This document shows positions 1,905-43,695 of a stretch of DNA of 64,000 nucleotides, in pieces (the first letter of the stretch is position 1; every line of letters begins with the position of its first letter). Where the stretch lies: NCBI GenBank assembly GCA_015178975.1, contig WHVD01000033.1:248001-312000 (forward strand). Reading direction: 5' to 3'. The position numbers were made by a program, and so were the translations under genes. The notes beneath the pieces were generated by a model. The model ran no database searches. It saw only the letters and a list, made by a program, of their open reading frames with translations, and was not told the DNA's origin. The DNA comes from Hysterangium stoloniferum. Lineage: Eukaryota > Basidiomycota > Agaricomycetes > Hysterangiales > Hysterangiaceae.

Positions 1905-1955
1905 TGTAGTATAGGCATCACTCTGTAGATTATTGGTCTCGTGGATAATATAGCT

Positions 1956-3257
1956 TCATTGATATAGACTGTTGATTTGGTCGATTTGACCGCATATACC
2001 TCCCTCCGGATTTCGAAGGGTGCATTTTCCATCGCCAAACGTGCATGAGAACCCCTTCTTATTGCAGCATGCAATGGACACTAGAGTAAATGCTAATTCA
2101 GGTGAGTACAACACATTTTGTAATGTGATGTTAGTGGGCTTGTTGCCATTTTGCACTTGTATGCGCATATTGCCAATTCCCGTGGCTAGGAACTCTGTCT
2201 TGTCAGTGGCGCGAATTTTCCGAGGTGGGTTTATTGGTTCGAAGCTTGAGAATAAGCTTAGGTATGGGGACATATGAGAATTGGCCCCAGAGTCCCATAC
2301 TTCGACAATCTTTGTGCCGCTGTTGCTAGTTTCACCATTTGTTAAAATTCCTGTATTTAGTGAGCTAGCGAATGCATATGACTCTTTATTTGCAATATTT
2401 GCATTCCTGCTGTTGCCTGTATTGTATCCCCTTTGGTTTGTGTTATTGCGCCTTGAATTTCTGCACATATATCTTGGTCCTTGCCCCTCCTTACCACCAC
2501 CCTTAGCCCAACAATCGGCTATGACGTGCCTGATCCATCTGCAATTCAGATTGAAGCATGTCAGGTTTCGATTTTGAGTTGTAGAGGTATTTCTCGAGTT
2601 CCAGGAGTTATTGCTAGGACCTGTACTTTGCCGCTGGCGCTTAGTATTTACCAGAAGAGCTTGATTGTTGTTATTAGCTGAGTTTGGGGCTTTCTTTGAT
2701 TTTCTACGTTCGTACTCGGCTTTGATCATTGTTATTAGATTTGTTGGGGTTAAAACAGTCCCAGTGGCTGTTGCAGAAGTTGTGACCACATTCATCATGA
2801 CATCATAAGAGTCCGGGAGTGAACTCAACATAATGTTGAAGAAATCGGTATCTTCTATCTTCATTCCCATGCTTGCTAATTGCTGATGCATTTCGAGCAG
2901 GGTGCCAAGGTGGGAATGTACATCTTCCCCTTCTTTGCATTTTAGAGCACGCATTCTGCACTGCAAATCAACTTGGGCCATTTTCGGCTTCGACTCGAAT
3001 TCCTGGCAAATGGCCTCCCATACTTCTCTTGCTGTGCCGAGTCTTTGAAGACTGAGCATAAGAGACGGGCTGACAGATAGGAAGATCTGAGCTTTGACTC
3101 GTCCTTCACATGCAAGGTAATGATCCAACCGTTCCTCTTGTTTGTCCCTAAGATCTAACTGATCATTTGTCAATACAGTTCCTGCAACATATATTGTGGG
3201 ATCTGGGGGGTGCTGTGCACTTCTGTCGATATGTTTCAACAGTGCACCTGATTCCAA
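1956..3257 (-). pseudogene. Copia gag and aspartic protease region
   Basis: An open stretch of about 433 residues. The first ~200 resemble the UBN2/gag family of Copia elements (motifs such as AREVWEAICQEFES and SLPDSYDVMM). A CCHC-type zinc knuckle (CFNLNC...H...C) follows at about residue 233, then the retroviral-type protease signature VWDSGANSHMSP near residue 322. In the family, gag packages the RNA and the protease cleaves the polyprotein. It belongs to the Copia fossil and lies just upstream, in element direction, of the integrase region. Confidence 0.9.
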
Positions 3258-3624
3258 TATGGATAATATTCAGCTTTTCCAAGCGATCCAATTTTCACCA
3301 TTATCGGTGAGTTTCTCGAGTGTAACTATAGCGGGGCCCATAACCTGTTGAATAGGAGACAATATTTCGGAAGGATTTAGTCTGTTTGCGAAACTCAGTG
3401 AGTGAGTGAGTAAACTTCACTGAGGTATATGGTGAAATATCGTGACTTTTTATCTACTTTCTAATTATTTTAGGAGAGTTATTAGGGGACTAAATAGGGG
3501 AAATTTAGATACTCGAAGTTTCTAGTCCATTGCATCATTAAGGAGATTAGGAGTTACTTCCCCCTTAGTGGCACCTCAATATATGCGCATATATTCATCA
3601 TCGGATCCATATTTCGGTTACATT
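3258..3624. other. Flank of the Copia fossil, no gene seen
   Basis: This stretch should hold the leader and 5' LTR of the Copia element, but I found neither convincing TG...CA ends, nor a primer-binding site, nor a target duplication. A short tandem GAGT motif occurs near 3400. No coding sequence is supported. Confidence 0.4.
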
Positions 3625-4395: not shown

Positions 4396-5690
4396 CAGTG
4401 AAAAGTGTGGTGACTCTGCATAGGAAGGAACAGGTGACGACAATTACCGTTCAAAAGTCCGACGTATTTTTTGGAAGAGTTCTTTAATAGTAGATTGAAT
4501 CAAATGATTGTTTCGTTACTACTCTAAATGAAATAATTCAAAACATGACAATTGGAATGAAATCCAGTCAACCGAAATGGAAGCAGTAGGGGGAAATATC
4601 GGGATAGCGAGTAAAATAAGTTGTCGTAGCGTGTAGTATGACGATACCTACTGAAACATTGAAACAAAACACAAGCAGAATTTCTCGTGGATTAGCTGCC
4701 CACGCAGCGGGTCGTGGGTATTCTTCAGCTCTTAGTTATTATGTCATTCCACCTGACATGACCACGAGCTACGCTTCTCTTATGTAAGGTGAAAGTTCAC
4801 GACAATGTGAAGAAGTGTGGGTATGGTGTTGTACAATGGCTTGGTGTAATCCCGTCGTCAATTGGGATCACTGGTGGTCACACGAGTTGACAGGACCACG
4901 GTGTATTGTCCAGAACAAGAACAGGATACAGGCAGATGCAGCGTACGGTAAGGTAAGAGAAGGAAAACTGCCTAGGCTTTATATGCTGTGATCACGTGGT
5001 AGAACAAAAGGAGTGGAACAAAGGAGTGGAACAAAAGGACAATGAGTAAGACTGGGGCGCCAGGCTTACACTTGGCTCGGCTTCCTGTCCTCCCAAGAAA
5101 ATGACCCCAGGATAATGGTGGGACCACCTTCTTTGAGATGTCCTAGTGGTATTCGATTGAAATCGTTATCGCTAGTATATGCGATGTAATTTCAGCGACG
5201 GATAAGCTTCCGAATATATTCAAACACCAGTCTAGAGAACGTCGGAGCGATCATTACAAGTGACTATCTTTGCTTTAAAACTGTGTCAAATTACGTAGTT
5301 TTATACAACTCTCAAGTCCGCGTCCTGTTCTAAATGGTCGTCATTTATAATAGCGTGTTAGTCTAGCCGTCGTTGGTGCCCGCAAGTGTATTCAACTCAT
5401 GTATGGTATCAACGCGTGCAACATGCAGAGCTCATGGCAATTGTGAAGAATGATTGTATGCGCTCTGATATTTGTTCGACTTATGGCAGCTTTATTTTCA
5501 AGTTTTCAATGGAAGAAAATTAGTTTAAGGAATTCGCCGAACAAATTGCCTTGCACGGTGTGAAGGCCCTCGGTTTTAAGATCATGGATCTTGTTGATTG
5601 AATACCGGCGAAGATCTAATGAGCCTGAACGAGACATGCATTAAAATGGCGACGGGGGAGTTTCAGTTATATCTTATTTAAAAAGATTTC
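4396..5690 (-). repeat. Non-coding tail of the composite repeat (copy 1)
   Basis: No supported coding sequence. This DNA is repeated with moderate divergence at 9890-10860 (same strand) and, inverted, at about 55890-56700 and 63470-63640. Shared landmarks include the runs CGATCATTACAAGTGACTAT and CGCAAGTGTATTCAA. It separates segment C from the family A gene in each unit. Confidence 0.75.
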
Positions 5691-7863
5691 GTTCATGATT
5701 CGAATGTTAGTCTAGGCAGGGCTAGTGGCTCCAAATGTATTCAACACATGGATGAGTACAACTGCAGAGCTCGCGACGATAATACAAAGGGGCGATATGC
5801 GTTCTTACATCCGCCCAAATCATGTAGCTTTATAAGATCTGCAACCCCGGGTGCAAAGTGACTTGAATAAAGGGCGACGCTATTCGGCTCCTGGTTTGAT
5901 TGAGATGTGTCGGCAGTATCGAAGAGAAATGATTAGCAAGTGTGTCCATTTGATGGTGCAAAACCTTTCAGGGGAACCATGTTTTCCAACACTGATATGG
6001 TGTTCTAATTATAACCTACCAACACACGAGTGGAAGGAGTGGCGACCACGCAAAGGAAAGAACGTGCAGTCAAATCTAAACGCTCAAGGCTGGACCCGGT
6101 GTATTGGTCGTTGGTCGAGCCGCACATCACATTAAAATGTAGAAGGAGAGAAACGAGAATATAGATGGAATCTAGGCTGCGCACCGTGGTACATGCGGAT
6201 TCGGGTTCGGAGAATCCAGCTATCATCTTCAGAGTAACCGATATGATTATCTCGACACAATCCAAGAGCGGGTAATTTGGACTCGCTTCCATCAAAACCA
6301 GACTGGTAGGACAATTTCATGGGCGGATGTAAGACAGTGCTATAAGGTAAAATAATGTGAACGTACCTTACGACGCGCACAATGATCGAAGAAACCACAG
6401 TGAGCTGGTTGATGTGATCGGTGAGAAGCGGGCTGTCATCGAAGAAGGTTTGCAAGGAGCGCATACTCCAATACAGTGAACGTGATGCCTCCGAATCAAT
6501 ATGTTGTGTCAATGACGTTATAAGAATGTTTATGTCATCCAGTATAACGTTCAATACAGCTCCAGCAATATCTCGAAACCATGCGTCTTGGTGGATGCAA
6601 CACACGAGGAGCGGTATAGAATAATCATAAAAGTCAGGTGGTTGTGTGTGATTTTGTCTGTTAAGGTTTTGGTGGGCAGGATGAAATGATATGATGTGGC
6701 GACGCACGGTTGTAACCAGAATTCAATGTAACCTCTTATCACCGTGAGCTCCTCGACAGATAGTTGACGCACGTGGCAGGTCGCTTCCACGATATACACA
6801 AGGCCACAAAGGGGTGAGGGATCATGAAATTCTGTTAGAAAACTGCCGATGTTTATGATAAATGCTGATGCAACCTCATCAAAGTTGGTGTGCAGCGGTG
6901 ACTTGACTAAAACGTTGTAAAGTGATGACGTAATCCCAGTTGACGCGTCTCTATTTGACGGATGAACGCCGGGACACCACGTGAAGGCCCAAGCCAAACA
7001 CGTCATAAGCTGACCTATGCTATGCCGCTGCATATAAAGTGAAGGCATCGGGTCCCATAAAATCATCCAAGCTCGTTTCCGAATTTGAGGCGGGTATATG
7101 GGTCTACAAAGACGTTGGTATTTCGAGTGTATTCAACATTGACGCTGAGTTATCCCCACCTCATTAAATCAACACTCTCTTGAACTAGTCTTCCCAATCT
7201 TGGCAAGGTGAGATGCTTGCGTAGAACCTGGCTAAAGGCACCGTTGTCGTGAGACAATTGACTGATTATTTTCCCGTATATTGTTAGCTTTCCCATCAGC
7301 GAAGCTTTCTTTGCACTGTGCAGGACTTTCATCCCAACCCTTTCCAAACCGACTCCACAGTAATACCCAGGGCTAATTTCAATACTTGATGATGTCCCAA
7401 GACTCCGGGAGATCACTCCCCAGTCATCGTCATGACTGCGATACGGGCTGAGGTTGGATGCCGTGTTGGCGGATATCCAAGACATCTTGACAACAGTCGG
7501 TGGGTCATGGTAGCTCGTTTCTCCTTGGCACTGAAATATGCCGCATGTGACACAGATCCCATGGAAATAGCATTATACTTCGCTCACCAACTTGTCGACC
7601 CAGACCTCTATATGGTTTGCAGACAGCAGTATGTGCTGCTCATCATCGGGGGCCCGATAACATAAATCATGGCCGGGTTCGCTACAACCCCATCGCTCTT
7701 GAAGCTTTTCCCTAAATATCTCTCTCATCCCCTTCTGAATGATCTGGTCCCGTTGCTCTGAACTCAATACATCTGGGGGAAGTAGTTCCTCAGCGCCTTC
7801 AACGTAGGGCTCAGCGGTTGCCAAATCGTGATCTCTCAGAGTCATCTCGGTGACAGTAGACAT
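5690..7863 (-). pseudogene. Family A copy a: unrecognised multi-exon protein
   Basis: The ATG at 7863 opens an exon of about 96 residues (to 7573) with the family hallmark RWGCSEPGHDLCYRAPDD. A short intron (donor GTGAGC) leads to a second exon at about 7500-7150, with motifs YYCGVGLERVGMKVLHSAK and HLTLPRLGRLVQESVDLM. A third block, 7066-6551, carries VLVKSPLHTNFDEVASAF. A fourth, 6650-6132, carries LVCCIHQDAWFRDIAGAV. The C-terminal block lies at 6295-6005, and the end is near 5750. Blocks three and four lie in different frames here, so this copy is probably not functional. I know of no named domain. A TATA-less conserved upstream region (7864-8140) precedes it. Confidence 0.65.
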
Positions 7864-8140
7864 TGGTGGGTAGCAGTCGTACTTACATTCGAAAGGGGTG
7901 CTGAGCTTTTATGGCGCGGTCAGTCGGAGAGTTAATTCCACCAAGGTATAGCCTTGTGGCCGTGCTTACACAGCATTCACAGCCTGTCACTGCCGTCCTC
8001 GTAAATAACATCCCCTCACCTTCCATACAGGCTGCAGTGCACTAAGTTACCTTACTACTTTCTTACGCCTTCTGCTGAAGGCTCACACAGCATTTAATAA
8101 TAGTTTAGCCAATTGTTACCCCATAGTATAATATTATTGA
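7864..8140 (-). promoter_or_regulatory. Conserved upstream region of family A (copy a)
   Basis: About 270 bp upstream of the ATG at 7863 is conserved with the upstream regions at 28064-28330 and 39060-39560, including GAGAGTTAATTCCA and CACACAGCAT. Conservation beyond the coding part suggests the promoter moved together with the gene. The element-direction sequence contains GCCATAAAAGCTCA close to the start, a likely TATA-type box; the plus copy has GCATAAAAGCTCA at the same place (31499). Confidence 0.5.
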
Positions 8141-8300
8141 GCGTCAGAGTTGCAATGCAGCTTTTCTGACATTCCAGAAGTGGGTTCAAGAATTTCTAAT
8201 GAAGTCATCACGGTTCGGTTCAAGAAAGGTCCGGGAATAATCATTGCCTGTGAGATATATATATCTAGTCCTACAACATATTTAATTATTAGTCACAAAA
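8141..8300 (+). repeat. Segment X, 3' end (copy at 8.2 kb)
   Basis: About 150 bp matching 30170-30290 and 41440-41540, with shared run TATATATATCTAGTCCTACA and the following CACAAAACACGA. In the fuller copy at 29.6-30.2 kb it is the tail of segment X, convergent with a family B copy, and the same convergent order is seen here. Confidence 0.65.
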
Positions 8301-8308
8301 CACGACCC

Positions 8309-9476
8309 CTACAAATTCAAAGGGATCATCGATCCAGCTTTCGTCACGGACGCAGCACAGAACTGCATTAAGAATAAGAAGTGATTATATGCGCTCTGAA
8401 ATTGCTTCACACCATAATCTTGAATACCGCTCCAGCAACATGTCAAAACCATAAATCTTGGTGGATGGAACCGAATAGCTGAATAGGATCTTGGGTAACT
8501 CAATGTCGTTACTGGCTATTCTGGCGACAATGATTTTTGTCAGAAGGATGGGGTGTGATGGTGCACTGTTATACCAAGAATTCAAGTAGCCTCTGATCGA
8601 AGTCACTTCCACACTGCTGACGGACGTGGGAGATGGTTTCCACGATATACGCAAACCTACCAATGAGGAAAGTATCTTGACCATCAAATGTTGATATATT
8701 TCGGGCGATTTGCATGATAAATGTCGATGCGACATCATCAAGGTTGGTGTTTAGTGGTGGCTTGGCGGCAGTATTATAAAATAGCGACCTCATTGCAGTT
8801 GACGTATTGCTTCTATCTGATTGATTGACACCGGGGTATCATATGAAGGTGAAACCCAAGCTGTCAGGAGCTTTCCAGTGTGATCTCTCCGCTGTATATA
8901 GAGTGAATACCAGCGGAAAAGGCATAAAATCATCGACGCTCCCTCCGGAATTTCGTGGTTCTACGAAGATGTGAGGATTTTGAGTTATTCAATGACGCTA
9001 AGCTATCCCTACCTCATTCAATCAATGCTCTGTTGAATTAGTCTGCCAAGTCTTGCCAGAGTTTAATCCTGGGTCAGGAACCCGTCAAGCCGGGGTGCTG
9101 TGAGACCATTCCCCAGTCCGCAGTATGACTGAGATACGGGGTGAGGCACAATGTGGCGTTCGTGGACTCCCTGGCATCCCAACCATACTCGAAGGTTCAT
9201 GGTAAGTTGTCTCTCCTTCGCAGTGAAACATCCAGTTTGTCAACACTCGTGCAGCGAGAATTAAACTCAAGCCGGCTGTTGCTTGAATAATGGCCCTCCG
9301 TATTCAATTATATTATAATCCCACCACACGATTTTTAGTTTAAATAATTTTTTATTGCCCCAATGAGGACTGTATTCCTCGTGTGCCCTTGCCATATCAA
9401 GGGGCTTGCATCTTATAGACGGTCTGAGAAAAGCAAGGAAGATCACCAGAGTTGACAAGTCTGCTGCACAATCCAA
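8309..9476 (-). pseudogene. Family B copy 1: diverged paralogue of family A
   Basis: The minus strand carries, in order, MARAHEEYSPHWG (exon 1, 9390-9350), CEGETTYHEP (exon 2, about 9215), PPLNTNLDDVASTFIMQIA (about 8760-8700), and a block ending LDMLLERYSRL at about 8440. Each aligns with the matching family A block (CQGETTYHDPP, SPLHTNFDEVASTFI, MHGFEILLELY), so B is a paralogue. The same gene occurs at 30249-31501. Frame changes between blocks suggest decay. The function is unknown. Confidence 0.55.
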
Positions 9477-9599
9477 GAGGTGTTCAGAGCAATTTCTTAC
9501 GAGGTGGTTGACCGTCGAAAGTGAATATATTTTATTATCCTGGCTTGCTCAGTGAACTGTTCGCCACGACGCACCTGGCTCACACTATTCACCCATTGC

Positions 9600-9890
9600 T
9601 GTGGCTGTTCAATCTGATGATGGAAAGGTAGATTACGGATTGTGAAGTACTGTGAGTCCTTGCGAATGTCAAAGCTGACATCTGACGTGTCTCCTCGGCG
9701 AGCACCATTATGGTGACGAACCCACTAGCATTGTTTGATGAAACGGTATGGAAGCCACATGATTATGTTCCGGGGGTTATTTTCTGGAAAAGGAAGACGT
9801 GATTCGAATTCGTCAACGGTGTCGACACACCAGTGAAAGGTGCAGAGACTAACGAATAGGAAGGAACAGGGGACGACAACTAACGTTCAA
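9600..9890 (-). repeat. Segment C (copy 2, degraded)
   Basis: Matches 4200-4440, including the shared run AAGTACTGTGAGTCCT, but is more degraded and shorter. With the tail at 9890-10860 and the family A copy beyond, it repeats the order seen at 3960-7863. The unit therefore recurs in tandem about 5.2-5.4 kb apart. Confidence 0.65.
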
Positions 9891-10860
9891 GAGGCCCACG
9901 GATCTAGTCGAATAGCTCTTTGATATTAGATAGAATCAAATGACTTTTCGCTACTACTCGCAATGAAACAATTCAAACATGACAATTGGTGGAATGAACT
10001 CCAGTCAACTGAAATTGGAGCAGTCAATGTTTCAGAAGACAAACGAGAAAATCTCGGGGAATGACTGCTCCACGCGGCGGGTCGTGGGTATTCTTCAGCT
10101 CTTCGTTGATATGTGATTCCCCCGGACATGACCACGAGCTACTTTTCTCTTAGCCAAAGTGAAAGCTCCCGACATGCGTAGAAATGTCGGTGTCTTTATC
10201 ATGGTGTTGTGCATTGGTTTGTTCCCGGCTTCCTGTTCTCCCAACAAAGGACACGACAAGAATGTTAGGACTTGAGACGCCCTAGTGGTGTTCGATTGAC
10301 ACTGTTACTGCTAGCATATGCGATGTCATTTCAGCGACGGGTAGTCCTCGGAATCTATTCAACATCAATCTAGAGAACCTCGCAGCGATCATTACAAGTG
10401 ACTATCTTCGCTTTTAAATTGTGTGAAATTATGTAGCTTCATACAACTCTCAAGTCCGCGTTCGGTTTCAAATGACTGTCATTTATAAATAGGATGTTAG
10501 TCTAGTCACGGGAGGTGCCCGCAAGTGTATTCAATGCATATATGGCATCAACGCGTGCAACATGCAGAGCTCACCGCAAAGGTGAAAAGTGACTGTCTGC
10601 GCTCTTATATTTGCTTGACTTTTGGCAGCTGTACTGTCAAGTTTTTAGTGGAAGACTATTAGTTTAAGGAACTCCCCCAACACATTGACTCGCACAGTGT
10701 GAAGGCCCTCGGCTTTAAGATCATGGATCCTGTTGATTGAACACTGGCGAAGATATGGTGAGCCTGAACGAGACATGCAGCAAAGTGGCGACGGGGGAGG
10801 ACTTTTCAGACGTTCAGGAATATCTTATTCAAAACGTATCTTGTTAATAATTCGAATGTT
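9890..10860 (-). repeat. Non-coding tail of the composite repeat (copy 2)
   Basis: Homologous to 4440-5690, with shared landmarks such as GCAGGGTCGTGGGTATTCTTC-like sequence near 10075 and CATGCAGAGCTCA near 10560. It carries several deletions relative to copy 1. No coding sequence is supported. Confidence 0.7.
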
Positions 10861-10879
10861 AGTCTAGGTACGGCTGGTG

Positions 10880-12024
10880 GCCCCAAATGTATTCAACACA
10901 TGGATGGGTACAACTGCAGAACTCGCGGCGATAATAGAAAACGGCTATATGCGTTCTTACATTGGCCCAAATCATATAGCTTTATAAGATCTGCAACCCC
11001 GGATGCAATCCTGGTTTGGTTGAGATGTGTCGGCATCATCGAAGAGAAATGATTAGAAAGTGTGTCCAATCGATGGTGTAAGACCTTTGTCAAGGCAACC
11101 ATGTGCCTTCAACACTGATAGGGGGGTCTAATTAAACCCTATCAACAAACGAGTGGAAGGGGTGGCGACCACGCGAAGGAGGGAATGTGCAGTGAAATCT
11201 AAATTCTCAAACAGCTGCCTAATGATTTGGTCATGGGTCGAGCCGCGCATAGCGTCACAATGTGGAAGGAGGGAAACGATAATGGCGATGGTATTGACGC
11301 TGCGCACTGTGGTACACGCATATTCTGGCTCGGAAGATCCAGCTATCAGCTTCAGAGTCAAGTCGATTATTTTTTCGCCAGACACTAGGATTACCCAATC
11401 TGGGCTCGTGTGTCAGAATGAGACTGGTAGGACAATTATATGGGCGGATGTAAGACGGTGCTGGAAGGTAAAATATGGTGAACGTACCGTACGATGGGCC
11501 CAATCAGCGAAGAAAGCACTTTCAGCTGGTTAATGTGATCGATGAGAAGCGTGCTGTCGTCGAAGAAGGTTTTCAAGGAGTCAATGCTCTCATACAGTGA
11601 GATCGACGTGTGTAAATCAAGATGAAGTGTCAATGACGCTATATGCATGTTTATGTCGTCCAATAAAACCCTCAATACAGCTCCAGCGATATCTCGAAAC
11701 CATGCATCTTGGTGAATGCAACACACGAGAAGCCGGATAGGAAAGTAGTTGTCTCTGATATTCTCTGTTATGGTTTTGGTGGGAAGGATGAAATGGTGTG
11801 ATGGCACGATGCACGGTTGTAACCATAATTCAATGCAACCTCTGATCGCCGTGAGCTCCTTTGCAGATAGTGGACGCATGTGGCAGATCCCTTCCACTAT
11901 ACGAACAAGGCCGAAAAGAGGGAAGTGATCATGAAATTCTATTAAATGACGGGTGATGTGTATGATAAATGTTGATGCGACCTCATCAAAGTTGGTGTGC
12001 AGCGGTGACTTGACTAAAATGTTG
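10880..12024 (-). pseudogene. Family A copy b, 3' half, split by the pogo element
   Basis: Reading minus from 12024: the VASTFI block, then an uninterrupted frame 11897-11436 running from MEGICHMRPLSAKELTAIRG through LVCCIHQDAWFRDIAGAV to HHILPSSTVLHPP. A C-terminal block at 11385-11128 contains LKLIAGSSEPEYACTTVRS. The last exon, 11102-10893, ends LLSPRVLQLYPSMC. This copy shows that blocks 3 and 4, in separate frames in other copies, form one continuous peptide. The rest of the copy continues at 15829 on the other side of the pogo insertion, but exons 1 and 2 are not found. Confidence 0.7.
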
Positions 12025-12358
12025 TACAGTTGATTAGGTCATAATGCATAAGGTTATAATGCATAAATCTAATAATGCATTGGGTTGTATAGGGAACAAT
12101 GTTGGTACGCAGGGAAAATGAATACATAATGCATAATGCATAATGCATAGGCTGAGGATGGCAATATGCATTACTACGGGGAGAGAAATTAAGGTTTCGG
12201 AACTGTAATTACCGTGATTGAGGCACAGCTTTCACCAGCTGCTTAGGTTTGAATTAAATAGGCTGTACTATTCATACAAATGCCAGTATTGCACTAAGGC
12301 TGGGGCGTCAGGCATGTCAGGGTGGCCGAAGAAAATCAAATTTTCATCTTGTTTCCTT

Positions 12359-13314: not shown

Positions 13315-15527
13315 ATGCCTAAAACTGAGCCCAAGACTACACGAAAGCCTCGAGAAAAGCCAGCACCTTATGTCAAAAACAAACAGAAGCAAATTGACAA
13401 TAGAGATATGCCAAAGACATCTGCAAAACCAGCAATCCACACACAGCATGCAAATCTGACACTTGCTGATTGGCTGACTGTTCTCAAGTATGTTGATGAA
13501 CATCCATTGCTTTCACAAGGAGACATTGTCAACCATTTCAAGACCAAGATTGATGGTGCTTTACATTTTTCCCAATCAACACTCTCTTGAGCCATCAGCA
13601 AACGTCCAACACTTGAAGAACGCAGTCAATCTAACCCAACTGCATTATCTTCAAAGTGTGCATGAATTGTCACTTGACCTGACATTGAACATGCATTGGT
13701 TCTATGGGTCAATCATATGCTGGAGAAGAATGAGGTTGTTAGTGGACCCATGTTACTTGAAAAGCGCAAGTGTTTTGAGACTTTATTTGATGTGCCTGAT
13801 GATCAACAACTCACTGGTAATGGGTGGATCCCTTCCTTTTGTGCAACCTATAAGCTTAAGGAATACCGGCAACATGGGGAGGCTGGCTCTGTAGATCTCA
13901 GTGCTATAGAGGCTGAACAGAAAAGGCTTCAGAGCTTGATAGAAACATTCAAGCCCTGTGACCGGTGGAATTTTGATGAGACAAGTCTATTTCCAAAGTG
14001 AGTAATTCTTGTTTGTTGAATGAGAGATTATCACATGTATTTCCAGGTGTCCTCCTGATCGTGGTCTGTCAGACAGACATATGAGTGGAAAGAAAAAAGA
14101 CAAATTTTGAATTACCCTGGGATTTGCTTGCAATGCAGATGGCAGTGAGAAAATGCCACCAATTTACATTGGAAGGTCAAAGCAACCCCACTGCTTTGGA
14201 AAAAAATCACCTCAAGATCATGGCTTTAATTATTGGAACAACAAAAAGGCATGGATGACATCTGAAATATTTCAAGAGTAAGCCCTCCTTCCATATTTAC
14301 TCAGGACATTGAGAGCTAGCACTTAATTAATACTACAGATGGATTAAGAAGTTTGACCTGAAGATGCGAGCTGAAGGACGGCACATCTTGCTTGTCATTG
14401 ATAATTTTTCAGGTCATTACATTGAATATCAGCCAAAAAACATACACATTGAGTATTTCAAGCCAAATCTCACCTCCTTTGTGCAGCCACTTGATGCAGG
14501 AATAATCCACTGCTTCAAAGCACATTACCGTGGCCTTTTCTGTCGTCGTGCAATTGATCTTGATGAGGCAAATGGACCAGACATCTATAAAATTGACCTC
14601 CTTGAAGGAATGCAAATAGATGATGCAGCCTGGGAGGCAGTAGCCACTGAGACCATTCAGCATTGTTGGAACCACACTAAAATTCAAAGGTTTACTCTTT
14701 TTACTCTCTTCATACAGCTACTAATTATTATTTTTGCATTTATGTATAATAGACAGCTATTGTCAACATCTGCTAAAGACAGCTCTGAGGAGACTACTCC
14801 ACAGGTAGCTTCTGATCCTGGTGCATGGGATATCTTGCGAAGATTTGCAAGCAGTGACATGACACTTCCACAAGCAGAAATGGCACTGATTCAGCATCTT
14901 AGTGATCAGTACAAGGATGCTGACTGGTGTCCAGCTCTTAAAGCTGTAATGGAAGCTGAGGGTGATGTTTCAAAGGCACAGGAAGCCATTCAGGTATTGT
15001 CTGCTGCCTGTGGAAGGCCCAAGCTCACCATCAAACTCCCAGCATTCCGTCCTTCCCAGCTTGTAACAGCTGAAGAAAGTCTTGGGAGCTTTATTAAAAT
15101 TCTTCATCAAAAGAACTGTATCTTTGGTCAATTACCAACTGTCGAAGAACTAATCAACCCCGTTGAAGAGGGAAAAAATAATGGAGATGAATCTCCCTAT
15201 GCATTTCCTGGTGGAGATAAGGATATTGTACAACAGGTAGTACATGAACAGCAAGTGGAGAAGGGGGAAATCATGGAAATTGATGAATCTGACAATGATG
15301 ATTCAGACCCAACTGACAATCTCAGTCAACATGACACAATCAAATTGGTAAAACAACTGGAACAATTGGTAATCAAGTATGGGGCAAATCCATCTGACAA
15401 TCTCGAGTTGAATCATCTGCTGCACAAATTTCGTGCCCATTTGGTCCATGAAGACTCTATTAACTCAAAACAAACTACTCTTGACACCTTTTTCAAGCAC
15501 ACTACGGTAAGAGCCCATACTACATAG
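13315..15527 (+). pseudogene. pogo/Tigger transposase (DDE_1), lightly decayed
   Basis: The ATG at 13315 opens a basic N-terminus (MPKTEPKTTRKPREKP), followed by a CENP-B-like helix-turn-helix region (LTLADWLTVLKYVDEHP) and the DDE_1 core. Catalytic aspartates are visible in WNFDETSLFPK (about 13965), LLVIDNFSGHY (14390) and VQPLDAG (14485). Introns are likely at about 13999-14047 (donor GTGAGT, acceptor TTTCCAG), 14279-14340 and possibly 14690-14752. In-frame TGA codons near 13588 and 14108 sit where the family has Arg, consistent with CGA to TGA decay. A further frame change lies between 13590 and 13700. The acidic C-terminus ends at 15527. Confidence 0.85.
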
Positions 15528-18206: not shown

Positions 18207-18372
18207 ATTTTGTCTGGTGGGAGTTATTACTTAGATATGTGTCTCATCAGGTAGGAGTGTTAGATTCAGTGACTCAGCACAGTAGTTCACCACATGTCAA
18301 TAAGGCATCTTAAGATTCTGTGTATTAACTGATGGAAATGGGTCAGTGTATAGGGAGCTCACACAGATGATG

Positions 18373-18800
18373 TGATTCCTGAGATTCTTAGGGTAGATAC
18401 ATAGGATGTAATATGCAGATTATAGCAGTATTCACACAGAGATGATTCTTAAGATTCTGGGTGTATATACACAAACCATGATATACAGCCTATATGGGTA
18501 TCCACACTGAGATGATTCTTGAGATTCCTGGGGTAAATACATCTTACATGCTATGCAGAAAATAGAAGTACTCACACAGAAGTGATTCTTGAGATTTTTA
18601 GGGTAGATACATACACAGCAAGTGATATACAGATTATAAGATAATTCACACAAAGGTAATTCTTGAGATTCTTAATGTACATACACAGAACATGATATAC
18701 AGATTATATGGGTGTCTACACTGAGATGATTCTCAAGATTCCTAGGGTGAATGAAATACAGCTGATCTAGAGATATTTAAGCAAATACATAGAATAAAGC
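18373..18800 (+). repeat. 70-bp tandem array, left arm of FB-1
   Basis: Six degenerate units starting at 18373, 18443, 18513, 18583, 18657 and 18727, each beginning TGATTCTTGAGATTC or close to it, continuing GGGTAGATACATA and ending CACACAGA(G). The regular 70-bp spacing (74 once) is kept. The inverted counterpart is at 21495-21890. Confidence 0.9.
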
Positions 18801-18809
18801 CTTATGGAA

Positions 18810-19420
18810 ATTAGGGAGATTGGGAGGATTGGGAGGGTTAGGAGGATTAGGGGATTGGGGGATTAGGGGATTGGGGAGATTGGGGGGATTGGGAGGATTG
18901 GGGATTGGGGGATTGGGGGATTGGGAGGATTGGGGGATTGGGGGATTGGGGGGATTGGGGGATTGGGGGATTGGGGGATTGGGGGATTGGGGGATTGGGG
19001 GATTGGGGATTGGGGATTGGGGGATTGGGGGATTGGGGGATTGGGGATTGGGGATTGGGGGGATTGGGGGATTGGGAGGATTGGGGGAATTGGGAGGATT
19101 GGGGATTGGGGATTGGGGGATTGTGGGATTAGGGAGATTGGGGAGATTGGGGAGATTAGGAGGATTGGGAGGATTGGGGATTGGGAGATTGGGGGGATTG
19201 GGAGAATTGGGGGATTGGGAGGATTGGGGAGATTGGGAGGATTGGGGGATTGGGGGAGTTGGGGGATTGGGAGGATTGGGGGATTAGGGGGATTGGGGGA
19301 TTGGGGGGATTGGGGGGATTGGGGGATTAGGAGGAATTGGGGAATTGGGGGAATTGGAGGAATTGGAGGAATTGGGGAATTGGGGAATTAGGGGAATTGG
19401 AGGAATTGGAGAGAGTTGAG
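18810..19420 (+). repeat. G-rich minisatellite, left arm of FB-1
   Basis: About 600 bp of short units, mainly GGGGGATT, GGGGATT and GGGAGGATT, with GGGGGAATT and GGAGGAATT near the core. Long open frames through it (Gly-Leu-Gly, Gly-Ile-Gly, Trp-Gly) are by-products of the repeat and not genes. Runs of five Gs every 8-9 bases could form G-quadruplexes on the plus strand. Confidence 0.93.
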
Positions 19421-19429
19421 GAATAATTC

Positions 19430-21300
19430 AACTCAATCCTAAACCTAATTCCTCTGTCCAACTCCTTGATATATTTCCCTCCATCTCTCTCCCAATACTC
19501 CCACCCCAATGTCCTCAATCACTCTCCCAATACTTTCAATATCTCTTCTAATGTCTTCCAAACCATTCAATCAACTTCCAATACCTCAATACCTCTTCTA
19601 ATGACTTCTATCTCTCTCTGCCAGTACCTCCAACCTCCTTCCCAATGTCTAACCTCCCTCCTAATACTCCCAACCTCCCTCTCAACACCCTCAATCTCCT
19701 CTCAAAGACTTCTAATTTCCTCCCAATACTTCCATATCAATAATGCTGTAATGTGTAATCATGTCTATCCACATTTCACCAATTGCATAATTCTATCTGT
19801 TCCATTAGGCTCATAGTATCCCACTGTGTACTCAACATCCTTAGTGACATCTGTTCTGTTCCTCTGTATTGTCCTCCTTAGTATCAAATGCATTCTACAT
19901 CTAGAAGTTTCACTAAAAGCAGTCAATATTTGAATACACAGAATGTGTAAGGTAGTGATACACCATACACTGTGAGGTGGTAATAGGCTCTCATCATTCT
20001 TCTCTTTCTATTATTCTCCAAATGTATATGTACTTTACATGTGGTTTGCATATAGTAGTAATTATTCCCCATTATCACTCAATCTATTAGCTGTTTTTAT
20101 TTGCAGCAGATATTAGTCCTACACTATTCAACTGTTGCACTGTTGAAACATGGCAAAGTACAGCCAAACTAAAAATTGCTACCAATGTGATTCAAATAAC
20201 AACTGCATAACAGCTATAATAATTGCTATCTGAGGGATGAATGTGCAGAAGGTTCTGTTATAAACAATATCATTTTTGTGATGATCTGTATCATAATCTT
20301 ATAATGGTTATCACCATTCTCTTTAGTTGTGTAGAATATATGTAAACTATTGTAGTAAGATAAATTCCTATTACTATTAGAATGATATTTCCTTCTCTTG
20401 ATATATGTTTCATTGGCTTATAGAGCACTTTCTGGTATACTCCATTACAATAATTCAGAATTCCAGTCATGATATTTATAGTCTTTGTGGCAGTAGGATA
20501 ATATATAAAAAGTATTAGTACAAGGCAAACCTTGTTTCCAGTGGAATAACATTTCTTCCTTACTTGTATGACATGTTCATTTATTTAGAACTGTTTCAAT
20601 GGTGTAGTAGTTCTACAGCTAGACCAGTTGAACTGTGTAGAACTAATATCTGTAGGAGATGCAAATGGCTAATAGATTGAGTACTGAGAGAGAAAAAACC
20701 ACAGCTTTTGTGCAGCCACATGTGAACTTGTTGTGAACTGAGATGGTGGAGTTGGAGTGTCCCTGAGAATAATAAAAAAACCCTTGATCATGTATCACAT
20801 CATTTATCAACCTTCCTTTATTCCACATCTTACCACCACTTAATCTTTACTTCAATTGTTTTTTTTTTCCTATCATTACCCTCTTTTAATCTTTCATATG
20901 TACCTCAGTCAATTTTCCCCATCGTGTGGACTAAGGTACATTATTCACAACTTAGTCTATTTGTTACATTAGCATACTACTTCTTAATTGGTAGTAATGC
21001 TATTTGTTATAGAGAAAAATAATGAGACCCTATTTGAAACTCCCTACAAATCTCACAGAGAATAAACAGGGAGTATTGGGAGAGAGGTTGGGAGTATTGG
21101 GAGAGACATTGGAGGTATTGGCAGGAGAATTAGAGGTATATGGAGAGAGAGATGGAAGGCATTAGAAGAGATATTGGAGGTATTGGGAGAGTGATTGAGG
21201 ACATTGGGATAGGAGTATTGGGAGGAAGATGGAGGGAAATATATCAAGGAGTTGGACAGAGGGATTAGGTTTAGGATTGAGTTGAATTATTCCTCAACTC
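19430..21300. other. Non-coding core of FB-1
   Basis: Bounded by the inverted segment at 19430-19620 and 21053-21290 (ATATATCAAGGAGTTGGACA and its complement). Inside are pyrimidine-rich degenerate repeats (CCTCCCAATACT-type) to about 19735, then unique AT-rich DNA that matches 45700-47040 at high identity. No open frame with protein-like composition is seen. Confidence 0.7.
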
Positions 21301-21490
21301 TCTCCAATTCCTCCAATCTCTCTGATCCTCCAAATCCTCCAAATCTCCCCAATCTCCCCAATCTCCCCAATCTCCCCAATCTCCCCAATCTCCCCAATCT
21401 CCCCAATCTCCCCAATCTCCCCAATCTCCCCAATCTCCCCAATCCTCCCAATCCCCTCAATCCCCTCAATCTTCCCAATCTCTCCAACAC
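21300..21490 (-). repeat. G-rich minisatellite, right arm of FB-1 (C-rich on plus)
   Basis: About 20 near-identical 9-bp units CCCCAATCT between 21340 and 21440, with mixed units on both sides. It is the inverted counterpart of 18810-19420 but much shorter, so the arms have unequal lengths. The 70-bp array mirrored from the left arm follows to 21890. Confidence 0.9.
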
Positions 21491-21950
21491 CCTGAAAATC
21501 ACCTCAGTGTAGACACCCATATAATCTGTATATCATGTTCTGTGTATGTACATAAAGAATCTCAAGAATTACATACCTTTGTGAATTATCTTATAATCTG
21601 TATATCACTTGCTGTGTATGTATCTACTCTAAAAATCTCAAGAATCACTTCTGTGTGAGTACATCCATTTTCTGCATAGCATGTAGGAGGTATTTACCCC
21701 AGGAATCTTAAGAATCACCTCAGTGTGGGTACCCATATATGTAGTCTGTATATCATGGTTTATGTATGTACACCCAGAATCTTAAGAATCACCTCTGTGT
21801 GAATACTGCTATAATCTGCATATTACATCCTATGTATCTACCCTAAAAATCTCAGGAATCACACCTGTGTGAGCTCCCTATATACTGACCCATTTCCATC
21901 AGTTAATACACAGAATCTTAAGATGACTTATAGTCTATGGCCTAGTAGTT

Positions 21951-29651: not shown

Positions 29652-30240
29652 GTGGACATGGCTCTTCAGCGCAACGATGACAATGTAGATCCATTATTGC
29701 GACTCACTCAGCTTGATCTATCGCAGGCAGACTTCAGCTGGTACGTCCAGATTCACCAAGTTGGGAATGCTAATATGTCTCCTTTTTCTGGTTTCTCCCC
29801 GCCCCCTTTGGGACTGGCCATGACAGTCCCTCTTCTGTCCCACACAATGGGCGTTCATCTCAGCTTTGAGTTTGATCCCCCAATCCATCCTTTATCTTCT
29901 CGGTTTGAATGATTGTCATTCAGGGAAATAATCCGGTACTGTGAGTTGATACGAATTTCCAACTTGAGGATCGGCTATTGTCATCGCAAAGTGGGCAGAA
30001 GATACGAGGCTTGCTGGGGTAATGTATTCGGGCATAGTCTTCAGTGTAGCAGGAAAAATAGAATAACACTTGCATCACTCTCGACGACAATAAAACTTTG
30101 GTATGCTAGTACCAGTCGGAAAAGGACAGGAATTCCCTTCAAAGACAGTGGCAAAGGCCGCACCTGGCCTTGGACTGGTTCAAGAATGATCCGGGAATAA
30201 TCATTTCCTGTGATATATATATATCTAGTCCTACAACGTG
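29652..30240 (+). pseudogene. Segment X of the composite repeat (best copy)
   Basis: An ATG at 29658 (MALQRNDDNVDPLLRLTQLD) opens a frame to 29912 with a Pro-rich, hydrophobic middle (FSGFSPPPLGLAMTVPLL). Further sequence to about 30200 contains AIVIAKWAEDTRLAGVMYS in another frame and probably belongs to a following exon. The copy at 39900-40290 (and 41160-41540 beyond an insertion) preserves both parts. The unit ends in TATATATATCTAGTCC, convergent with family B. No recognised domain; function unknown. Confidence 0.45.
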
Positions 30241-30248
30241 TTTCCTTA

Positions 30249-31501
30249 TTAGCCACAAAACACGAGCTCTACAAATTCAAAGGTATTATCGATCCAGTTT
30301 TCGTCACGGACTCCGCACAGAGCTGCATTAAGAATAAGAAGTGATTGTATACGCTCTGAAATTGCTTCACACGATAATCTTGAATACCGCTCCAGCAACA
30401 TGTCTAAACCATAAATGTTGATGGATGCAACCCACGAATAGTTGAATAGGATCCTGGTTAACTCGACGTCGTTACTGGCTATTCTGGCGACAATGGTTTT
30501 CGTCAACAGGATGAGGTGTGGTGGGGCGATGCACTGTTATAACAATAATTCAAGTAGTCTCTGATCGCAGCAACTTCTTCTACACACTGCTGACGCACGT
30601 GGTAGATGGTTTCCATGAGATACGCAAGCCCGCCAATGAGTAGAGTATTTTCACGATCAAATGTTGATATATTGGGGGGATTTGTATGATAAATGTCGAT
30701 GCAACATCATCAAAGTTGGTGTTTAGTGGTGGTTTGGCGGGACTATTGAAAAATAATAACTTCATTGCAATTGATCAACACCGGGGCACCATATGAAGGT
30801 AAAACTCAAAAACTTCAGGAGCTTGGCAGTGTGATCTCTCCGGTGTATATAGAGTGAAAACCACCAGAATAGGGATAAAATAATCGACGCTCCCTCCGGA
30901 ATTTCGTGGGTCTACGAAGACGTGAGTATTTCGAGTGCACTCAATGATTGACGCTGAGCTATCCCTACTTCATTCAATCAATGCTCTGGTGAATTAGTCT
31001 GCCAAGTCTTACCAGAGTGTAATTCTCGGTCAGGAAGCCGTCAAACCGGGGTGCTGTGAGACCATTCCCCAGTCCGCGGTATGACTGAGATCCGGGGTGA
31101 GACAGGATGTGGCATTCGTGAACTCCCTGGCATCCTAACCATAGTCAGGGGGTCATGGTAATTTGTCTCCCCTTGGCAGTGAAACATCCAGTTTGTCAAC
31201 AGTCGTGCAGCGAGAATTAAACTCAAGCCGGCTGTTGCTTGAATAATGGCCATCCGTATCCAATTCTATCATAATCCCAACACAAGATTTCTAGTTTAAA
31301 CAATGTTATATCGCCCCAATGAGGAGTGTATTCCTCGTGTGCCCTTGCCATACCAAGGGGGTCACTTAGTGTACTGCAGCCTTTATGGAGGGTTGAGGGG
31401 ATGTTATTTACAAAGGCAGGGATGACAGGCTGTGGATCCTGGGTAAGCACGGCCACAAGGCTGTACCTTGGTGAAATTAACTCTCTGACTGACTGCGGCA
31501 T
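30249..31501 (-). pseudogene. Family B copy 2: diverged paralogue of family A
   Basis: From 31501 on the minus strand: an exon containing MARAHEEYTPHWGD and LFKQQPA (to 31223); CQGETNYHDPLTM with RTGEWSHS (31170-31041); PPLNTNFDDVASTFIIQI (30730-30670); and NDVELTRILFNYSWVAS...LDMLLERYSRLS (30460-30360). The blocks match family A one for one. Frame changes between blocks suggest it is decayed, although CpG sites are partly kept. It faces away from family A copy d, with start regions only about 50-200 bp apart. Confidence 0.6.
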
Positions 31502-31548
31502 AAAAGCTCAGCACCCCCTTTGATTATAAGTACGACTTCTACCTACTA
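31440..31548 (+). promoter_or_regulatory. Core promoter of family A copy d
   Basis: GCATAAAAGCTCAGCACC at 31498 lies about 50 bp before the ATG at 31549 and is the likely TATA box; the same motif precedes copy a on the minus strand (7908-7895). A match to the family A upstream region (GGCCACAAGGCTGTACCTTG) precedes it. The region is shared head to head with family B copy 2. Confidence 0.5.
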
Positions 31549-33692
31549 ATGCCTACTTTCAACGATATGAATCTAGGGAATGACGATTTGGCAACGGCTG
31601 AGTCCTACCTTGAAGATGTTGAGGAATTACCACCCTTAGTTTCCCCAGGTGTATTGAGTTCAGCTCAACAGGAGAAGATCAATGAGGCGTGGATGAGGAA
31701 TGTATTCCGGCTGAAGCTCAGGGAACGGTGGAGCTGTAACGAACCAGGTCATGTTTTATGTTTTCGGGCCCCCGATGACGAACAGCACATACAACTGTCT
31801 GTAAACCATATAGAGCTTTGGGTTGACGAGTTGGTGAGTAAAGTATAATGCTATTTTCATGGGATCTGTGTCACATGCAGGATATTTCAGTGTCAAGGAG
31901 AAACGACCTACCATGACCCACCGACTGTTGTTAAGATGTCTTGGATATCCACCAACACGACACCCAACCTCAGCCCATATCGCAGTCATGGCGAGGACTG
32001 GGGAATGGAGTCGCAGTATGTTGGGGCATCTTCGAGTATTGAAATTGGCCCCGGGTATTACTGTGGAGTCGGTTTGGAAAGGGTTGGGATGAAAGCCCTT
32101 CACAGTGCCAAGACAGCTTTGCTGATGGCAAAGCTGACAATATACGGCCAAATCATGAGCCGATGGTCTCAAGACGACGGTGCCTTTAGCAGGTTTTTAC
32201 ACCAGCATCTCACCCTGCCAAGATTTGGAAGACTAGTTCAAGAGATTGTTGATTTAATGAGGTAGGGATCATTCAGCGTCAATGTTGAATGCACTCGAAA
32301 CCCCGACATCTTTGTAGACCCACATATCCACTTCAAATTCGGAAACAAGCATGGATGGTTCTAGATAAGGTCCCGGTGTATCCATTTCACATGCAGCGGA
32401 GTAGCAAAGGTTACAATACTCAGCTTATGACATCCTTAGCTTTGGCCTTCACGTGGTGTCCCGGCGTTCATTGGGGAGATAGAGACGCGTCAACTGCGAT
32501 GACGTCATCACTTTACAACGTTTTAGTCAAGTCACCGCTGCACACCAACTTGGATGAGGTTGCATCAACATTTATCACACAAATCGCCGGTGCTCTAACA
32601 GGATTTCATCATCCTTTACCCATTCTCGGCCTTGAGGAAATCATGGATGCGATCTGCCAGGTGCGTCAACTATCTGTAGAGGAGCTCACGGCGATCAGAA
32701 AATACTTTGAATTCTGGTTACAGGCGTGGGTCGCGACCTGACATCATTTCATCTTTTTTACTAAAAGCATAACAGGCAAAGTCGCCGGCGACTATTTTCC
32801 TTATCTGAACATCCTATACGGATTCTCGTGTGTTGCATCCACCATGATACATGGTTTCGAGATTTTGCTGCAGCCGCATTGAGGGTTATATTGGACGACA
32901 TAAACGTGCATATAGCGTCATTGACACTTCATCTTGATTTGGAGACATCAAATTTACTGTATTGGAGTATTTGCTCCTTGGAAACCTTCTTCGACGACCG
33001 CACGCTTCTCACCGATCACATCAACCAGCTGAATGTGGTTTCTTCCCTCATTGAGTCCATCTCAAGGTACGTTCACTATATTTGCCTTCCAGCACCCTCT
33101 CACATCCGCCTATGAACCTTTCCTACCAGTCTGATTCTGACGCACCCGATTCCAAATCGGGATCTCCTGTGGTCTGGCGCAGGAATAATCGAGTTGACTC
33201 TGAAGCTGATAGCTGGATCTTCCGAGCCCGAATCCGCATGTAGCACAGTACGCAGCCTGGACACCATTTCCATTCTCCTTTCTCTCGTTTCACATTGTGA
33301 CGTAATGCGGGGTTCGACCAACCGGCAATCCATCAGTTCCTCGCTTGAGAGTTTAGATTTGACCGCGCGTTATTTCCTTTGCGTGGTCGCCACCCCTTCC
33401 ACTGTGTGTTGGTAGGGTTTAATTATAACTCCATATCAGTGTCGGAAAACATGGTTGCCTTGAAAGGTTTTGCATCATCAAATGGACACACTTGCTACTC
33501 ATTTCTCTTCGATAATGCCGACACACCTCAATCAAACCAAGAGGAGCCAAATAGCGTCACCCGTTATTCAAGTCACTTTGCACCCGGTGTTACAGATCTT
33601 ATAAAGCTATATGATTTGGGCCTCTGTAAGAATTCGTATAGCCACTTTGTATTATTGCCGCGAGCTCTGCAGTTGTACCTATCCATGTGTTG
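31549..33692 (+). pseudogene. Family A copy d: best preserved, unrecognised protein
   Basis: Exon 1 (31549-31833) reads MPTFNDMNLGNDDLATAES, then RWSCNEPGHVLCFRAPDD, and ends at a GTGAGT donor; the acceptor is at 31880 or 31890. Exon 2 (to 32261) reads CQGETTYHDPPTVVKMSW, GYYCGVGLERVGMKALHS and HLTLPRFGRLVQEIVDLM. Then come the blocks VLVKSPLHTNLDEVASTFI (32526), LSVEELTAIRKYFEFWLQ (32673), VCCIHHDTWFRDFAAAAL (32830) and a short intron near 33067. The C-terminal block LKLIAGSSEPESACSTVRS lies at 33200, and the last exon (33451-33692) ends LLPRALQLYLSMC. At least one frame change (about 32720-32830) suggests it no longer makes a full protein. Intact length would be near 700-750 residues. No known domain; no clear signal peptide. 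Confidence 0.65.
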
Positions 33693-33699
33693 AATACAT

Positions 33700-34860
33700 T
33701 TGGGGCCACCCAGCCGTGCCTAGACTAACATTCGAATCATGAATGAGACATGTTTTAAATAATATATTACTGAATGTCTGAAAAAATCCCATCCTTCAAC
33801 ATCTCTTTCAACGTTTTACCTCTTCACTTTGGCATGTAATTGTGTCTGCTTCATTGGTTTCTCAGCTCTGCTCAGCAAAGAGCAATACTACTGAGTTGAA
33901 AAGGACAGATAACAGCATGGAGAACAGGATGCTAAGAGTATGTGTCTCTTTTGTGAAACCAGTAGGTGCACATCTTTGTACCCTTCATCAATCTACTAAT
34001 GTAGGCCCTTGTGCTTAGGTCTCTCAAAGCAGTGCAATGTTGGACAAGACTCCCTTGGGTCCATGTATGCAGATAAATGATCACATGCTCAATGGGCTGC
34101 AGTCGAAGCCGGCAATGCTGATAACAACTATGAGCACAAACATTAATTTATAAGTGTAAGTCATTTCACACTCACATTGTTCCAGTCAATGCCATCTACA
34201 AGTGGATAGCCTGAAAAATTCATCACAATGATAGAAGAAATAGACACATGCCAAATGTATGCATTTGATGCAGCACACTGGAGAGCTTAGTGAATTCTTT
34301 GTGTATCACTCTGCACTGACATCTTACCCTGATGAGTGCATTTTTACCTATGTGTCCATGGGATATTCAAGTTGCACAGCTATGGACAGTTCTGTTTCAC
34401 CATCCTGCTGTTGAGTAAAAGCTATTCATTTACTTTGCCATCTCATTTTCTCCACATGGGGTTCCCCATTCAATGTGCTTCATGCAAGTGTGAAATTCAC
34501 CAGTCTTGATAATTGGAATCATGGATTGGTGATCACAATTGGCAGTGATAGGATGAATGAGTGGGCAAGCAATTTCAGCTCTAAATACTTGTGTGCAAAA
34601 CAATTCCTTCATAATGTGAGTTGCACCTATATATTTTGCCTCTGTTGATAATAGTGCAATGAAAATTTTCTTTTTCGAATTCCAGGAAATTGTGCCTTGC
34701 TCTGCTCTCTTGTTCTGAAAACTGTCACTGATCTTCTGCCTCTATCCATGTTGACAAAATTACTGGAAGTTGAATATTGATGCTATGTCCATGAAGACTT
34801 CAATGCCATAAGTGGCTTAAATCCATGTGAGTTTTTGTGGCAGGTGCGACTTAGCTGTCT
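33700..34860. other. No gene seen
   Basis: 33700-33830 follows the family A end (matches 5700-5640 inverted). The rest is CpG-poor, AT-rich sequence without a convincing frame or repeat. Confidence 0.4.
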
Positions 34861-37814: not shown

Positions 37815-39024
37815 ACCTCATGATTGATTAATGGGTGGGATGAAATGATGTGATGTGGGGACACACAGTTGTAACCAGAATTCAATGTAACCTTTGATCA
37901 CCATGAGCTCCTCTACAGATAGTTGATGCATGTGGCAGTTTGCCTCCATGATATACACAAGGCAGAAGAGGGGTGAGGGATCATGAAATTCTGTTAGAAA
38001 ATGGGCGATGTGTATGATTAATGTTGATGCAACCTCATCCAAGTTGGTGTGCAGCAGTGACTTGACTAAAATGTTGTAAAGTGATGACATAATCACAGCT
38101 CACTCATCTCTATCTGACCAATAAACACTGTGGCAGTAAAAGAAGGCCAAAGCCAAGAATGCCATAAGCTGGGTAGTGTGACCTTTTCTGCTCCCCCGCA
38201 TGTGTGAATATATCTGGAAACTCTTGAAAACTTCCATCGCTCTTCTCCAAATTTGAGGCAGGTATGTATGTAGGTCTACAACTCAGATATGAGTATTTCC
38301 AGTGTATTAAATGATTGAGGTATCCCTAGCTCACTAAATCAGCACTGTCTTGGACTAGTCTTCCCATTTTTGACAGTGTAAGATGTTTGTGTAGAAACTT
38401 ACTAAAGGCACCATCATCTCGTAACAAATGGGTGATTTCCCCATATATTGTCAGCTTTGTGATCATTGAAGCTATCTTAGCACTGTGAAGGACTTTCATC
38501 CCAACCCTTTCCAAACTGACTCCACAGGAATACATGGAGCCAATGTCAATACTTGACATTGCCCCTTACTCTGTGAAATCATTTCCCAGTCATCATCATG
38601 ACTGCAATAGGGGCTGAGGTTGGATGTCATGTTGGTGGATATCTTAACAGCATTCGGTAGGTCATAGTAGCCCATTTCCCCTTGACACTGAATACACAGC
38701 ATGTGCCACATATCACATGGAAATAGCATTATACTTTACTCACCCACTCATCAACCCAAATCTCTATATGGTTTGCAGACAGCTGTATGTGTTGCCTATC
38801 ATCTGGAGCCCAATGATATAAATCATGGCCAGGTTCATTACAACCCCATTGTTCTTGAAGCTTCTTCCTGAACATGTCTCTCATCCCTTTAATGATCTCA
38901 TCCCATTGCTCTGAACTCAATACAATAGGGGAAACTAAGGATGGGAGTTCCTCAATGTCTTCAAGGTCGATCTCAGCTGTTGCTGAATTGTGATTCCCCG
39001 AGTCATTGAGTTGGAAGTAGATAT
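37815..39024 (-). pseudogene. Family A copy f, heavily CpG-decayed
   Basis: Exon 1 (about 39024-38740) reads RWGC-equivalent EQWGCNEPGHDLYHWAPDD and NHIEIWVDEWVSKV. Exon 2 (38690-38330) holds YSCGVSLERVGMKVLHSAK and HLTLSKMGRLVQDSADLV. Exon 3 (38100-37830) holds ILVKSLLHTNLDEVASTLI and LSVEELMVIKGYIEFWLQ. The copy ends at about 37815, where the tyrosine-recombinase sequence begins. Arg codons of other copies read Trp, His or Gln (RAPDD to WAPDD, ERWGC to EQWGC), as expected from C to T change at CG sites. Confidence 0.7.
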
Positions 39025-43631: not shown

Positions 43632-43695
43632 GTCACATGATTAACAGAAAACCTTATTGATTATCAGCAAATAAGGTTTTGTTTAATCATGTGAC
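43632..43695. repeat. Long hairpin beside the mariner left inverted repeat
   Basis: A 64-bp palindrome: GTCACATGATTAA and AAAACCTTATT pair with AATAAGGTTTT and TTAATCATGTGAC around a loop of about 10 bases. It sits between the inverted repeat and the FB-2 insertion and could be part of the transposon or a tiny nested element. Confidence 0.7.

Follow-up and report, generated by a model that had tools for sequence, protein, structure and literature searches.

What kind of element accounts for two layered, mirror-armed structures in a single stretch of fungal DNA, and how did its arms come to be alike when its tips are not? The stretch analysed (the window) comprised 64,000 nt of Hysterangium stoloniferum (assembly GCA_015178975.1, contig WHVD01000033.1, positions 248,001 to 312,000, forward strand); coordinates are those of the window, features of left halves being given on the + strand and those of right halves on the − strand. 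The structures, copy 1 (18288–21943, 3656 bp, + strand) and copy 2 (43720–48259, 4540 bp, + strand), had been taken in a preliminary description for a Foldback-like element without a transposase of its own. The evidence collected below makes it probable that they are copies of a DNA transposon that is non-autonomous, has arms of Foldback type and is moved by a DDE transposase made elsewhere.

The left end of the element was CACCACATGTCAATAAGG in both copies (18288 and 43720), and the right end CTATGGCC followed by one pyrimidine, T at 21943 in copy 1 and C at 48259 in copy 2, so that the 3' end is written GGCCY. The 22-nt left end and the 21-nt right end each occurred twice in the window, with no further occurrence at up to three mismatches and none in shuffled sequences; the matching ends first described were thereby confirmed. 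Copy 1 was enclosed by AGTAGTT (18281–18287 and 21944–21950), copy 2 by ATATATA (43713–43719 and 48260–48266); both 7-bp target duplications, noted before as separate, were perfect and differed from each other in sequence. When two places in the window were drawn at random, their 7-mers agreed, one base of slack being allowed, with a probability of 0.00034; the ATATATA duplication sits in an AT run, is the weaker of the two and counts for less than this rate implies. The differing 3'-terminal base leaves room for an 8-bp duplication with a first-base mismatch in both copies, which is nevertheless unlikely. A short inverted repeat resembling a small hairpin element was observed at 43632–43695, 24 bp from copy 2.

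The flanks of the two sites were compared at 1 kb and 4 kb. Only short chance matches were found between the 1-kb flanks; the 4-kb upstream flanks (E up to 0.01) had nothing in common, and the 4-kb downstream flanks (E up to 0.01) had in common no more than repeats of 152 bp and 76 bp, whose positions did not correspond, the first of them 2.9 kb out from copy 1 and 3.9 kb out from copy 2. The flanks being unrelated, the copies are not one segmental duplication, and the conclusion that the whole structure moves as a unit is sound; the duplications had been said to prove it, a slightly strong word for two copies, one of them in an AT run.

From the outside inwards, both copies consisted of tips 18 nt long and unlike each other, arms built of ~70-bp units, a minisatellite rich in G, a second inverted layer and a core. 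The layered design stood as first described; the unmatched tip, given there as about 20 bp, was corrected to 18 nt, and the tips are not wholly unrelated. Left tip (18288–18305 in copy 1, the same in copy 2) and right tip (21926–21943 in copy 1, the same in copy 2 save the last base) differed from each other at 10 of 18 positions in both copies and matched at 7 of the 10 positions from 9 to 18. The left arm of copy 1 (18306–18800) consisted of a tip motif and six ~70-bp units, with six exact motifs and one TCTCAAGATT; left tip and arm of copy 2 (43720–44240) held seven motif sites, five exact, one CCTTGAGATT and one TCTCAAGATT; right arm and tip of copy 2 (47730–48259) held seven, six exact and one TCTCAAGATT. 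The six units reported earlier were thus found after the tip motif in both left arms and, of the right arms, in that of copy 2; in copy 1 the right arm (21488–21925, six motifs) had lost its innermost unit by deletion. In copy 2 the right minisatellite enclosed a further duplicate, about 100 bp long, of the right arm's inner end (47366–47468). Arms that are long inverted repeats made of tandem repeats, together with several domains, are Foldback-like in structure and support the earlier assignment, as do the flanking target duplications with movement as a unit.

The motif in question, TCYTRAGATT, occurred 23 times in the 64 kb (1.14 expected), always in the arms of the element; left arms carried it on the + strand and right arms on the − strand, so that it points inwards throughout. 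Counted from either end, the first motif started at position 21, and the later ones followed at steps of 66–76 bp. When the units of an arm were compared with each other, the motif columns were more conserved than the remaining ones in each of the four arms (mean majority 0.90–0.94 vs 0.75–0.79; p 0.004–0.018), a comparison biased toward the motif because the units were cut at it. The regular, inward array makes TCYTRAGATT a candidate transposase site, and this suggestion is strengthened by the case of Galileo, the transposase of which was found by experiment to bind, with its THAP domain, sites within the long repeat arms (PMC3688188).

The minisatellites inside the arms had their G strand running coreward on both sides. 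In copy 1 the left one (18814–19409) was made of 8–9 bp units of GGGGGATT type and the right one (21299–21487) was C-rich on the + strand, with GGGGAGATT expanded; in copy 2 the left one (44243–45395) had GGGGGAATT expanded, and the right one was split into a short inner piece (47313–47351) and a main piece (47466–47714). Copy 2 had 34 occurrences of GGGGGAATT in its left array, and copy 1 had 11 of GGGGAGATT in its right array; judging from these arrays, the minisatellites appear to have turned over independently in the two copies. The second inverted layer (copy 1: left half, pyrimidine-rich, 19424–19700, right half 21060–21300; copy 2: 45396–45675 and 47046–47285) had a left–right identity of 84–85%. 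The core of ~1.3 kb, shared by the copies as had been stated, contained in addition an older inverted pair of 73 nt, 75% complementary (copy 1: 20062–20134 and 20625–20697; copy 2: 46028–46100 and 46591–46663); slightly extended, this pair gave z 12 against shuffles. A core that is as a whole one decayed palindrome was considered and rejected: with the boundaries used here, the intervals that separate the second layer from the innermost pair on the two sides have similar lengths, but their resemblance to each other did not exceed that of shuffles (z 1.05 in copy 1, 0.21 in copy 2), and the innermost halves were likewise not above shuffles (z 0.07). A transposon nested inside the element at the 73-nt pair was also discarded, no flanking duplication being seen there by eye.

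The element has no recognisable gene, as the preliminary description had held. The longest stop-free run in the core was 98 codons, a length reached by 9.4% of 500 simulated cores, and no Pfam family scored above its cut-off in eight scanned open reading frames (ORFs) of the core and second layer; matches to CDC4_D and GBV-C_env in element ORFs scored below cut-off and were taken as chance. A coding core was rejected on these results and on an ORF of 96–97 amino acids common to both copies, in which the differences fell 1, 4 and 2 by codon position; three gap positions separated the copies in it, and no sign of protein selection was seen. Core and second layer of copy 1 gave no match to plasmid records. 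Both tips, one arm sequence, one degenerate arm pattern and one core sequence gave 0 matches in viral contigs, and the arm sequence and arm pattern 0 in bacterial and archaeal contigs; with collections of these kinds the blanks say little.

The age of the layers was read from the differences between halves and between copies. The two copies were 96.4% identical in the core, 95.5% in the left arms and 96.9% in the right arms. Arm-specific (pre-split) sites amounted to 9 of 432 beyond the tips in the four-arm alignment and to 27 of 220 in the second layer, where copy-specific or cross sites were 0. The ancestral left–right distance was accordingly about 2% in the outer arms, about 12% in the second layer and more than half in the tips. 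Ordered by depth, left and right now agree at 75% in the deepest pair and at 84–85% in the second layer; in the outer arms they agreed at about 98% in the ancestor of the copies. A Fisher test of tips against arms was run with 9/18 and 9/412 (p 1.6e-9); the actual counts, 10/18 and 9/432, form a larger contrast. After the split, 28 arm sites changed in single lineages (of the 7 single changes assigned to copy 1's right arm, 4 border its deletion and are maybe alignment noise); since the arms changed freely after the split, constraint alone cannot explain their ancestral likeness. On the simplest reading of these site patterns, homogenisation of the arms took place not long before the common ancestor of the copies, and did not extend to the tips.

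A working model can be put together from these observations, the mainstays of which are the exact ends, the 7-bp duplications, the unrelated flanks, the inward motif array and the lack of a recognisable gene. A DDE transposase, supplied from elsewhere in the genome, would bind the TCYTRAGATT array, pair the two arms and cut at the two unlike 18-nt tips, which would not be interchangeable; insertion would follow with a 7-bp stagger, presumably by cut-and-paste. Site patterns suggest that the likeness of the arms was kept in the ancestral lineage by copying between them (gene conversion), and the minisatellites may lengthen and shorten through slippage or unequal exchange. Several results weigh against this picture. 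Most cut-and-paste elements have an inverted repeat at their outermost bases, and here there is none; the window yielded no empty insertion site, no third copy and no transposase sharing the ends of the element. Across the four arms, columns were variable at 7 of 102 positions in motif windows and at 33 of 330 in the rest (p 0.44), and the motif windows being not significantly less variable between arms, no recent constraint on them is shown. Ongoing conversion within the resident copies was tried and is unsupported (2 copy-specific sites vs 1 cross site).

A wider reading goes beyond the non-autonomous transposon with Foldback-type arms and is offered tentatively, as one with a poor chance of holding in full. 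By it the ends would be functionally non-equivalent, the arms repeatedly homogenised in the mobile lineage, one being copied onto the other, and the 18-nt tips shielded from this by selection, since an element with like tips would be immobile; the transposase would cut with a 7-bp stagger, and the whole would represent a fungal Foldback lineage. If this reading were true, the element would be a natural record of the layered growth of Foldback arms.

The rivals differ in what they concern: attribution to the P, hAT or Mutator group would be a sub-reading of the main explanation, naming the enzyme, and only the reading of the structures as two parts of one segmental duplication, or as an assembly artefact, is not. 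The latter could appeal to copies that share their orientation and lie 25 kb apart on one contig, and is extremely improbable in view of the unrelated flanks, a target duplication proper to each copy and 3.6% divergence of the cores; the lengths of the minisatellites could still reflect assembly. For the choice among enzymes, Pfam was run over the window on 138 of the 195 stop-free ORFs of at least 70 amino acids that were left after ORFs of the minisatellites had been dropped (221 before); the 47 shortest ORFs and 10 element ORFs were left out, 3 of these 10 being among the eight scanned separately, and a scan of this kind may overlook genes that are broken up into short exons. Matches to Ntox43 (2 ORFs, score below cut-off), SLC25_like and Gyro_capsid, E 0.001–0.007, were taken as chance. 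A mover of the P superfamily, of Galileo type, with a THAP-domain transposase, 7-bp duplications and binding to repeated arm sites, is improbable. Most Galileo copies of D. mojavensis carry identical 7-bp duplications, and the tandem repeats of the arms hold binding sites (PMC3573991, PMC3688188); duplications of 7 bp were found in both copies here and are not exclusive to P elements. The Pfam families of the 138 ORFs included no P-type or THAP domain, nor was one present in the eight ORFs of core and second layer, where a non-autonomous copy need not have it. The Galileo repeats are described as terminal, with extremities of about 40 bp conserved between species (PMC3688188); in the element studied here the inverted repeat does not reach the very ends, the outermost bases of which differ, with 10 of 18 tip positions unlike.

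Origin from a hAT-group element was weighed next to this. A hAT gene is present in the host; the hAT element of the window itself was rejected as the source of mobility, as it makes an 8-bp duplication (GAGCGTAT), has other ends (TAGTGGTTTGCARG) and is without the arm motif. The consensus of hAT ends is YARNG, which the tips (CACCA, RGGCC) do not fit when compared by eye. The 7-bp kind of the group (hAT7), known from rust fungi, is an unlikely though conceivable mover; 7-bp duplications are made by these fungal families (PMC12730594). A Mutator-group element with the Foldback design of Tm1, that is, with subterminal inverted repeats and unlike tips, is a candidate of limited promise: the 7-bp tips of Tm1 are asymmetric and stand outside composite arms built from tandem repeats, a purine-rich (GA-rich) motif lies further in, and its layout is the closest match among the published elements compared (PMC3169594). 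Asymmetric tips outside subterminal inverted repeats were found here as well; the duplications of Tm1 are of 8–10 bp, mostly 9 (PMC3169594), vs 7 bp in both copies, and a Mutator domain was likewise absent from the Pfam families of the 138 ORFs. The authors of the Tm1 study point out that the transposases of Foldback-like elements belong to different groups, so that structure does not decide membership; the elements are thought to have originated independently (PMC3169594). By the rule used in Repbase, a non-autonomous element is assigned by the same duplication length and by terminal positions 1–11 matching the reference with at most one mismatch (PMC4455052).

Other mobile and repeated sequences were recorded in the window. 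The hAT element (57832–61733, GAGCGTAT duplications included) had 14-nt inverted ends TAGTGGTTTGCARG, matching at 13 of 14 positions, a hAT dimerisation domain in the ORF at 61134–61541 and GAGCC/GCCCGAGCC-type repeats near both ends; its gene held six intron-like GT..AG stretches of 40–56 nt (pattern matches only). Pieces of a Ty1/copia-type retrotransposon (gag, pre-integrase, integrase) lay on the − strand at 2–3269, and a pogo-like DDE_1 transposase ORF at 14331–15524; in the Pfam scan of the window a reverse transcriptase domain was found in one ORF, and a Tc5-type DNA-binding domain in one ORF. The copia, pogo-like and hAT proteins and the short intron-like stretches of the hAT gene are in keeping with a fungal host. 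Direct repeats of 572 bp, 92.5% identical and resembling long terminal repeats (49633–50204 and 52538–53108, 2.9 kb from start to start), enclosed a 19-bp tandem array (50996–51292). A multicopy gene-like family, 76–86% identical, occupied 5078–12042, 30177–33784, 37832–39109 and 55094–56466; two of its ORFs, scanned singly, had no Pfam match. Rfam gave 0 matches over the window, and the number of tRNAs in it was 0.

In the literature, judged by title and the opening of the abstract, no fungal Foldback element was recognised among the matches listed, most subscription journals lying outside the search, and the search for 7-bp duplications in fungi, judged in the same way, gave none either; the only basidiomycete paper with the word Foldback among the matches listed was, by its title, on hairpin small RNAs (PMC9757828), and a term search did not return the word in the Laccaria transposon survey (PMC3411680). 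The element nearest in layout, Tm1 of root-knot nematodes (Mutator/Foldback, Phantom-type transposase), has asymmetric short tips, composite arms of tandem repeats, a GA-rich inner arm motif and variable arm length, and many of its copies are without transposase; it differs by duplications of mostly 9 bp and arm units of ~14 bp, vs 7 bp and ~70 bp here, and by its nematode host, the long G-rich minisatellite being a feature of the fungal element (PMC3169594). Galileo of Drosophila (P superfamily) is similar in its 7-bp duplications in most copies, its long arms of changing length and, in some subfamilies, arm tandem repeats that hold transposase binding sites; it retains P-type transposase remnants in some copies, whereas the element studied here has unlike tips and no transposase (PMC3573991, PMC3688188). 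Tetris, a Foldback element of Drosophila virilis, likewise has no conserved ORF and has layered arms with ~220-bp tandem repeats, in an insect and with duplications of 8–10 bp (PMC4079207). The hAT7 elements of rust fungi share the fungal host and the 7-bp duplications; they encode hAT transposases, and Foldback arms are not mentioned for them in the excerpts of PMC12730594. A special kinship with Galileo is unsupported, because 7 bp fits the fungal hAT7 elements as well (PMC12730594) and the unlike, unmatched tips most resemble those of Tm1 (PMC3169594). Galileo, itself Foldback-like, makes chromosome inversions in flies (PMC2775673). Set beside these systems, the Hysterangium element looks like a new variant within the loose Foldback group and not a new kind of thing; it unites duplications of 7 bp and unlike tips with a regularly spaced motif array and with layers that differ in age, and through this combination the questions why Foldback arms grow and how their ends are told apart become testable.

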